A DNA stretch of 63,218 nucleotides from NCBI GenBank assembly GCA_004298675.1, contig SCRI01000034.1, forward strand, positions 1-63,218, written 5' to 3'. The first letter of the stretch is position 1. Each line of letters opens with the position of its first letter. The stretch is from a bacterium (GTDB lineage Bacteria; Vulcanimicrobiota; Vulcanimicrobiia; Vulcanimicrobiales; SCRA01). The translations under genes were made by a program, and so were the position numbers. The notes beneath the pieces were generated by a model that was given only the letters and a program-made list of their open reading frames with translations, was not told the DNA's origin and ran no database searches. This document shows, in pieces, positions 24,896 to 26,163 of the stretch.

Positions 24896-24956
24896 CGGAA
24901 CCTGCACGCTTCTATCGTAGACCCCGTTGGCCTTCCGAGGTTTACACCAGCGGTCA

Positions 24957-24985
24957 TTGACAGTGGCGGCGTCGCATGTTAAGTT
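24957..24985 (+). promoter_or_regulatory. Promoter of the ilvE leader
   Basis: TTGACA (24957-24962), 17-bp spacer, TAAGTT (24980-24985). The expected transcription start is about 24992, 3 nt before the leader-peptide ATG. Confidence 0.75.
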
Positions 24986-24994
24986 TGCGGGTAC

Positions 24995-25060
24995 ATGTAT
25001 CGCTCGCGCGCGCTCCTTCCCGTCATTATTTTGCTTAGCCGCTTCGCTAGGAGCCGGTGA
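24995..25060 (+). CDS. Branched-chain amino acid leader peptide (21 aa)
   Basis: ATG at 24995 to TGA at 25058-25060. Residues 7-14 read LLPVIILL, seven Leu/Val/Ile codons out of eight in a row. This is the composition expected for a ribosome-stalling leader of an ilv gene. No Shine-Dalgarno is possible if the mRNA starts near 24992, so initiation would be leaderless. The last codons (25038-25048) form one strand of the antiterminator. Confidence 0.82.
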
Positions 25061-25133
25061 GGTAGACGCGCGCAGACAAGCCCAGTCATCGAAAAAGCGA
25101 GCGGCCCTCACCAAAGGGCCGCTCGCTTTTTCG
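25038..25133 (+). promoter_or_regulatory. Transcription attenuator of ilvE (antiterminator and terminator)
   Basis: Terminator: 25090-25108 pairs perfectly with 25115-25133 (19 bp, six-base loop CACCAA), ending in CTTTTTCG. Antiterminator: GCCGC-T-TCGCT at 25038-25048, inside the leader peptide frame, pairs with AGCGAGCGGC at 25096-25105 through two 5-bp blocks around a bulged T and disrupts the terminator stem. A ribosome stalled on the Leu/Val/Ile codons leaves 25038-25048 free (read-through). One that reaches the stop codon masks it (termination). Confidence 0.8.
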
Positions 25134-25149
25134 CTAGGAGGAAGCAATC

Positions 25150-26103
25150 GTGGCCATGGCTCAACCTAAACGGCCCCAACCGGCCGTCGACGTCGCTCCG
25201 TTGTATTGGTACGACGGCGGAATCGTCGATCAAGCCGAGGTGGAGATTCACCCGTTCACGCATGCGCTGCACTACGGCAGCGGCGTGTTCGAGGGCCTGC
25301 GGGCCTACCAGACCGAGCGGGGCCTGTGCATCTTCCGGCTGCGCGATCACATGGAGCGCTTCCTCCGCTCCGCCGCCACCTACCACCTCGCTGTCGACTA
25401 CACGCTAGAGCAACTCTGCCAAGCCGTCGTTCGGACCGTGCGTGCCAACCCCGTGGGCGAGGTCTACGTTCGCCCGCTGGCTTGGTTCGGAGCCGGCGGC
25501 CTCTCCCTGGCACCTTACAGCCACGCTCCCACCCACGTGATGGTGGCCGTGCGCCCGCTCGGCGGCTACTTCTCGGGCGGAGACGAACGGCCGACGGTGC
25601 GGCTGACGGTCTCTTCCTGGCAGAAGTCGCCCTCGGAGTCCCTCCCGAGCACCGTCAAAGCCAGCGGCCACTACGCCAACAGCGTCCTGGCGATGAGCGA
25701 GGCGATGTCCCGGGGCTACGACGAGGCGCTCATGCGTAACAAGTACGGGCGCATCGCCGAGGGCTCGGGTGACAACGTCTTCTTCGTGCGGGGCGGCACC
25801 CTCCACACCAACGACGCCGGCGAGGACATCCTGCCGGGCATCACGCGGGGCACGGTACTGGAGCTGGCGGACCGGCTGGGCATCCCGGTCAGCGTGGAGC
25901 CCTTCTCGCTGGAGGACCTGCTGGGGGCCGACGAGGTCTTCATCACCGGTACCGCCGCCGAGGTCACGGGCGTGCGCGAGATCGATGGCGCCGTCATCCC
26001 CCACGGCGCGCAGGCCCAGGTCACGGCGCGGCTGCAGGAGGCCTATGGGCAGGCGGTGCGCGGCAAAGGTCCGGAGGCCGCGCGCTGGTGCACCATCGCC
26101 TAG
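25150..26103 (+). CDS. ilvE: Branched-chain amino acid aminotransferase
   Basis: A 317-residue PLP-dependent class IV (fold type IV) aminotransferase for the final step of Leu, Ile and Val synthesis. Characteristic motifs are [19 protein letters not shown] (about residues 38-56), [17 protein letters not shown] with the PLP lysine (about 169-185), and [12 protein letters not shown] with [13 protein letters not shown] downstream. The GTG at 25150 lies 8 nt after AGGAGG (25136-25141); an internal ATG at 25156 is an alternative with poorer spacing. Expression is predicted to depend on the attenuator immediately upstream. Confidence 0.95.
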
Positions 26104-26120
26104 CGATCACCGCAGGTTGA

Positions 26121-26163
26121 CTCTTGTCTTGTCAGTTGACAAGACAAGAGTCTTGACTACAAT
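26121..26163 (+). promoter_or_regulatory. Promoter with 30-bp palindromic operator before the NCS1 gene
   Basis: CTCTTGTCTTGTCA (26121-26134), GT, and its exact complement TGACAAGACAAGAG (26137-26150) form a perfect 14+2+14 palindrome. The right arm includes the -35 TTGACA (26136-26141), spaced 16 bp from the -10 TACAAT (26158-26163). It probably binds the NiaR-type repressor encoded as the second gene of this operon. It could also act as an ilvE terminator stem, but no T-tract follows. Confidence 0.78.

Follow-up and report, generated by a model that had tools for sequence, protein, structure and literature searches.

A near-leaderless, ribosome-mediated attenuator predicted before ilvE in an order of Eremiobacterota, and its relatives before other amino-acid and sulfur genes

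The ilvE gene in the stretch of DNA analysed here (63,218 nucleotides, in the following called the window) is most probably controlled by a transcription attenuator of the ribosome-mediated ilv/trp type. It would be carried on a near-leaderless mRNA and belong to a previously undescribed set found across an order of little-known soil bacteria (Eremiobacterota), in which the sensor codons are fitted to the gene downstream. We put the probability of this reading at roughly 0.88. The leader, its promoter spacing, the terminator, the mutually exclusive covarying helices and the match between codons and gene all emerge from the comparison of sequences across relatives.

In the window, ilvE (25150-26103, plus strand) and the divergent uvrA (minus strand, start near 24896) are separated by 254 nt, which hold a promoter, a leader ORF, a hairpin and a Shine-Dalgarno sequence. 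ilvE starts with GTG and encodes a branched-chain amino-acid transaminase, which scores above the cut-offs of PRK06606 and TIGR01122 (319 bits; cut-off 245.6); ilvE of FW021_bin.48, from the same genus, is 86% identical. The promoter (24957-24985, plus strand) consists of TTGACA (24957-24962), a 17-nt spacer and the extended -10 box TGtTAAGTT (24977-24985), and the pattern TTGAC-N-TGnTAnnnT is conserved in relatives. The leader ORF (24995-25060, plus strand) runs from ATG at 24995 to TGA at 25058-25060 and has 21 codons, among them the putative regulatory run Leu-Leu-Pro-Val-Ile-Ile-Leu-Leu (LLPVIILL; CTC CTT CCC GTC ATT ATT TTG CTT, 25013-25036). It is followed by a terminator that folds into a 19-bp stem (25090-25108/25115-25133) with T5 at 25127-25131; this tract is short and lies inside the extended stem. 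Leader and stem had been described as such in an earlier note on this DNA, and both are there in the sequence. The Shine-Dalgarno sequence of ilvE, AGGAGG, is located at 25136-25141.

Only 9 nt lie between the -10 box and the leader ATG, which leaves no room for a Shine-Dalgarno sequence and predicts a 5' UTR of about 0-3 nt. Among 39 leaders with the same layout (14 before ilvE, 22 before ilvB, 3 before leuA), the distance from the end of the -10 box to the start codon is 7-11 nt in 32; therefore the mRNA is expected to start at the ATG or within a few nucleotides of it. The leaderless start suggested by the earlier note is in keeping with this spacing, which is conserved across relatives.

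Could the hairpin simply be an ordinary terminator or transcription boundary between uvrA and ilvE, with an ORF that arose by chance? In favour of this, the stem forms a nearly symmetric A5/T5 inverted repeat, and both the pairing and the excess of Ile, Leu and Val codons in the leader (p 0.05) are marginal when the window is taken alone. However, uvrA is transcribed away from the stem, the ilvE promoter lies upstream of it, and the layout recurs at 14 ilvE loci whose neighbours differ from those in the window. A scan for the layout (TTGAC-N15-20-TAnnnT-N5-13-ATG/GTG, an ORF of 14-32 codons with at least 20% Ile, Leu and Val, and a strong hairpin downstream) gave no chance matches either: it hit the window once, at the ilvE leader, and gave 0 matches in 60 Markov-shuffled windows. 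In 785 kb of fetched loci all its 35 matches lay at ilvE, ilvB or leuA, and the outgroup ilvE loci L034-L085 had no match. We regard a mere boundary as extremely improbable.

Downstream of ilvE, at 26120-26151, the window contains a perfect 32-nt palindrome, ACTCTTGTCTTGTCA-GT-TGACAAGACAAGAGT, of which none is expected by chance. It overlaps a TTGACA...TACAAT promoter that belongs to the following permease-like ORF, and judging by its sequence it is likely a repressor operator.

The switch itself was modelled by folding the leaders before the 3' arm of the terminator exists, with the ribosome footprint masked. With stall masks at codons 7-15 (nine positions), the minimum-energy pair in both the window and the sister species is 25056-25062 with 25106-25112 (GGTGAGG/CCTCACC). 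The first strand is the core of region 2, the predicted antiterminator strand (25055-25073), and contains the TGA stop; its partner belongs to region 3 (25090-25114), which comprises the 5' arm of the terminator (25090-25108) and the loop. The helix is lengthened by three-bp blocks; in the sister species it has nine contiguous pairs. A ribosome placed at the stop codon covers this strand and lets the terminator form, region 4 (25115-25133) being its 3' arm. In the minimum-free-energy fold of the ribosome-free leader, region 1 (25006-25022, codons 4-10) pairs with 25055-25073, and the terminator forms as well. This 1:2 stem, the anti-antiterminator, occupies 12 of the 13 antiterminator bases. 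The same ribosome-free combination is obtained for the sister species L002 and for the leuA leaders; in L005 and L086 the ribosome-free fold lacks the terminator. A leader ORF with cognate codons, a terminator, an antiterminator exclusive with it and a 1:2 stem are thus all found in silico, and sequence and folding together suggest that a complete attenuator with 1:2, 2:3 and 3:4 pairings very probably precedes ilvE.

The earlier note had envisaged a different architecture, in which late codons of the leader (GCCGCTTCGCT, 25038-25048) are the antiterminator strand, pair with 25096-25105 and need no separate 1:2 stem. This duplex can form in the window (-14.5 kcal/mol, with one bulge), and a ribosome stalled early in the codon run would leave its leader strand accessible. 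But the duplex is not conserved: it is weak in the sister species (-9.4 kcal/mol), where the stop-region pairing is stronger (-18.2 kcal/mol). It is also never the minimum-energy pair at any of the nine stall positions, and folding predicts a 1:2 stem for either species. In addition, the homologous columns of other leaders use the stop-region strand; in a 22-leader alignment the columns of region 2 of the window are identical to those of the ilvB leaders. We therefore consider the pairing of 25038-25048 improbable as the antiterminator. What holds of the proposal is the principle: the masked folds are consistent with a strand at the 3' end of the leader that is freed by stalling and covered when translation terminates. 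Folding with and without a ribosome footprint indeed gave a switch between exclusive states, with another antiterminator pair and a 1:2 stem. In the window, however, the strand comes from the stop region and not from the leader codons, as its first base is 2 nt upstream of the stop codon and its last one beyond. Other genera have it within the ORF, by up to 26 nt, which fits the general idea of the earlier note.

Our model of the stop-region attenuator is as follows. RNA polymerase would start within a few nucleotides of the leader ATG, and a ribosome would load at the very 5' end of the transcript. As long as charged tRNAs for Leu, Val and Ile are sufficient, the ribosome would reach the UGA at 25058 and cover region 2, so that the 3:4 terminator forms and ilvE is left untranscribed. 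Under shortage it would stall within LLPVIILL and cover region 1; the free region 2 (GGTGAGG...) could then form a helix with the 5' arm and loop of the terminator (CCTCACC...), and transcription would proceed into ilvE. If the leader is not translated at all, the 1:2 stem would sequester region 2 and the terminator would form. The start site, leaderless initiation, stalling, termination in vivo and the response to starvation are what we infer here.

How general is this arrangement? A leader with promoter and terminator precedes 14 of the about 30 ilvE copies of the clade (117 genomes of the class). The earlier note had named homologous upstream regions without the leader ORF or the alternative pairing as evidence that would speak against it; these 14 loci of the order keep both, and about as many ilvE copies have neither. 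Most of the latter either follow ilvD or other genes within an operon or have a different upstream region. In L090 and L091 the ilvE start codon lies just past the -10 box, which predicts a leaderless ilvE without attenuator. The genus of the window contributes two ilvE leaders only, since a third contig ends 20 nt upstream and G003 has no ortholog; a DNA search for further ilvE leaders in this genus returned G002 only. The ilvE leaders share runs of branched-chain codons (LPVIILL; VDVVVI; LVIL; LPVSIFIV), and their ends are tails conserved genus by genus (RLRSS*, PAGSSFA*). A comparable attenuator precedes ilvB in most genera examined; in one genus, g2, ilvB sits inside an operon and the attenuator precedes ilvC instead. 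leuA has an attenuator in the window genus, and divergent leuA copies at five further loci have Leu/Ile-rich leaders. The window genome carries three branched-chain attenuators (before ilvE, leuA and ilvB-ilvC-leuC-leuD) and four attenuators of the set in total. No promoter-leader-terminator array was found at trpE, which sits behind an apparent ribosomal-protein gene.

Most of the evidence for pairing is thermodynamic, and it gains its weight from the family. In the window alone the antiterminator is indistinguishable from dinucleotide shuffles (p 0.12 and 0.40 with two definitions), although only 2 of 37 foreign terminators fit the window leader as well as its own. Across the family, stalled-ribosome masks give every one of the 39 leaders a 12-24 bp antiterminator that spans the stop region, and a ribosome at the stop gives the terminator. 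Compared with shuffles the duplexes have a mean z of -2.6, with 28 of 39 at p <= 0.05. Because comparing duplex energies with shuffles is a weak test for single GC-rich leaders, a swap test was added. Over 21 gene-genus groups the leaders fit their own terminators better than swapped ones (z -6.3; 0 of 20,000 permutations). At loci outside the training set of the covariance model R1 described below the signal is weaker (z about -3.4, maximum p 0.03), since these share a GCCGA core.

Covariation was assessed in the alignment of 22 leaders including the window, because the two sequences L001 and L002 by themselves gave too little depth and were aligned wrongly in the loop. The antiterminator occupies the same columns in 17-20 of the 22 leaders, with 89% of cells paired and 19 two-sided changes. 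Its covariation is 0.343, compared with 0.179 +/- 0.025 in shuffles (0 of 500), a control that relatedness inflates, and with at most 0.091 when the helix is slid, a control that relatedness leaves unaffected. The terminator, the helix exclusive with it, reaches 0.390 versus 0.209 (0 of 500). Thus pairing does not exceed chance for the window alone and does so for the family. With shared branched-chain runs and two exclusive helices that both covary, the comparison of relatives proposed in the earlier note supports, from sequence, ribosome-mediated attenuation of ilvE with Leu, Val and Ile codons as the sensor.

The terminators differ in their T tracts. At the g2 ilvE loci (L013, L014, L015, L017, L019, L093, L094, L012) strong stems are followed by only 2-3 T in the next 8 nt, so that termination there may need a factor. 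Immediately upstream of the antiterminator strand, the leaders at these loci also carry a small hairpin in which A-U and G-C pairs covary. These weak U-tracts would suit a leader that senses Leu, Val and Ile and acts mainly on translation or RNA stability, or whose peptide or small RNA acts in trans as known for peTrpL of Sinorhizobium (PMC7298713). Such an action is unlikely to be the main one, however, as the ilvE Shine-Dalgarno sequence (25136) lies outside the stem and most ilvB and leuA loci have good T tracts.

R1 was built from the 22 aligned ilvB and ilvE leaders and run on 117 genomes; its E-values are rough. The window matches at 24981-25136 (E 5e-18), being itself a training sequence. 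Among 149 genomes of the phylum, many of them fragmented assemblies, full-length matches occur in one order only (two families), the genomes outside this order serving as the negative control. In each of the 61 fetched full-length matches from outside the training set, the position that R1 assigns to the start codon holds ATG or GTG, which is partly built into the model, and there is an ORF of 12-45 residues, which is not. The single-contig, 3.5-Mb genome G004 has seven matches at E <= 1e-5.

The full-length matches also precede ilvC (sensor MFARLVLVLSVILTDPPDRRAAFA), ilvA (MFASSSIIIASRIIIAAPPGRRAASA), leuA (MLVTSLLLLALALVGRSASNRLGLTTA), aroA, encoding EPSP synthase (MSPSAFWYRRYYGCTKSVSVEFGIA), the prephenate dehydratase gene pheA (MLTDRSLAFAYYYYFCRPPGR; in L211 with a DAHP synthase domain behind), DAHP synthase in the window genome (MFTSPRSYFAYWYFTDAHRRSG) and sulfur genes, namely those for NMT1/THI5-like, sulfonate-binder-like substrate-binding proteins (MLNRGLCLMAMCICCLPHRDRRTSA) and for sulfite reductase (MLLCCCLLMACPASVARRSASS). 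At 48 loci the fraction of cognate codons is 0.289, as against 0.150 +/- 0.017 after reassignment of the leaders (0 of 20,000). This bears on the idea that the element is a cis-element of another kind (a T-box, a ppGpp or other riboswitch, or a protein-binding terminator) and its ORF incidental. A terminator in the 5' UTR is common to T-box, riboswitch and protein-binding classes, but leader codons that follow the pathway of the downstream gene are not what a ligand switch would produce. Furthermore, neither the window nor 14 related loci have a match at the gathering score of any Rfam family, T-box included, and a lax scan gave only sub-threshold matches to unrelated families. We hold such an element to be very unlikely.

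Matches that cover R1 only in part (columns about 65-154) may represent plain terminators and did not enter the tallies. Those before homoserine dehydrogenase and threonine synthase (MTTTITTTTT...), metX, metY, trpD and peroxiredoxin are treated as leads only.

Several single leaders deserve mention. In L221 (G000:C74:25766-25919, minus strand), the leader SYFAYWYF before DAHP synthase in the window genome combines Tyr, Phe and Trp codons. Ten leaders with Tyr runs (up to YYYYYYGYF) on the attenuator scaffold (L214, L220, L224, L235, L241, L242, L244, L252, L258, L260) precede a gene for an uncharacterised 250-aa protein with a weak Haem_oxygenas_2 match only. The predicted fold of this protein (pLDDT 80) best matches Chlamydia trachomatis CADD (8va9, 1rcw; E 5e-6, TM about 0.7). 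CADD is a diiron enzyme and uses a tyrosine to make p-aminobenzoate. Leaders with Cys and Met codons (L218, L225, L230, L231, L237, L250, L256; L243; L253, L257; L240, L255) stand before genes for sulfonate-type binding proteins, a TauE/SafE exporter, sulfite reductase and PAPS-reductase-like proteins, and from their sequences they form a candidate sulfur-starvation regulon under attenuation. In L268 (G102:C93, near 149362-149448) a short Cys-rich ORF and a terminator directly precede an apparent Cys-tRNA gene (anticodon GCA by eye), with a transporter-like ORF next.

A possible interpretation, which we favour with some reserve, is that the attenuators of this order of Eremiobacterota go back to one leaderless scaffold, copies of which were re-coded to sense Ile/Leu/Val, Leu, Ile, Phe/Tyr/Trp, Tyr, Cys/Met and perhaps also Thr and Met. 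Ribosomes that read tRNA charging would then be a main control of amino-acid and sulfur genes in the order, with the ilvE element of the window as one member. The shared scaffold could reflect either common descent or convergence on similar GC-rich terminators. Homologous attenuators with changed sensor codons offer a direct test of specificity change, and leader codons give clues to gene function, as with the poly-Tyr leaders before the CADD-like protein. The set becomes testable in a cultivated relative, Vulcanimicrobium alpinum (PMC9758169), if G004 is its genome. In the literature that could be searched we found no description of cis-acting amino-acid control in Eremiobacterota, in line with the earlier note, according to which the arrangement is not known from such a lineage or for a solitary ilvE.

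The classical attenuators of E. coli trp, ilvGMEDA, leu and thr work by the 1:2, 2:3, 3:4 logic with runs of cognate codons. The ilvE element shares this logic, whereas the E. coli leaders have a 5' UTR and a Shine-Dalgarno sequence, belong to multi-gene operons and mostly have region 2 after the stop codon. A close counterpart is ilvBNC of Corynebacterium glutamicum (ilvB-II motif), where transcription starts 1 nt before the ATG of a 15-residue leader rich in branched-chain amino acids (PMC11857589, PMC10272879) and three exclusive hairpins (antiantiterminator, antiterminator, terminator) include ORF nucleotides in the antiterminator (PMC11857589). It thus has what is predicted for the ilvE element: a near-leaderless start, a branched-chain leader, three exclusive hairpins and an antiterminator strand that reaches into the ORF. 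The two systems differ in the gene (ilvB) and the phylum, no Rfam-level similarity was found between them, and the ilvE element has its antiterminator core at the stop codon and a scaffold that serves many amino acids. Mycobacterium tuberculosis ilvB1NC likewise has branched-chain sensor codons (LVVI) and stop-codon masking: a ribosome at the stop masks the antiterminator and the terminator forms, and a stalled one frees it (PMC13236596). It differs in its 166-nt leader region, gene and lineage, and no order-wide family of mixed specificity is described there (PMC13236596).

Near-leaderless sensor ORFs for several amino acids, as predicted for the order-wide set, are known from Streptomyces lividans, with the leaderless leader peptides leuL, trpL, ilvL, metL and thrL, several of them without evident terminator (PMC8079986), and from the leaderless polycysteine ORFs of mycobacteria (Canestrari 2020, as cited in PMC13236596). 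Unlike for the order-wide set, these reports mention no RNA scaffold that the different specificities have in common. In Sinorhizobium meliloti the trpL mRNA begins at the leader ATG, as predicted for ilvE; it differs in being a Trp-codon attenuator of an alphaproteobacterium whose leader RNA and peptide also act in trans (PMC7298713). Neither the mechanism nor leaderlessness is therefore new, leaderless attenuators having been described in Actinobacteria and in Sinorhizobium. What appears to be new, as far as the searched literature goes, is the phylum, a solitary ilvE under its own attenuator, an RNA family without Rfam match and the use of one scaffold with varied sensor codons.
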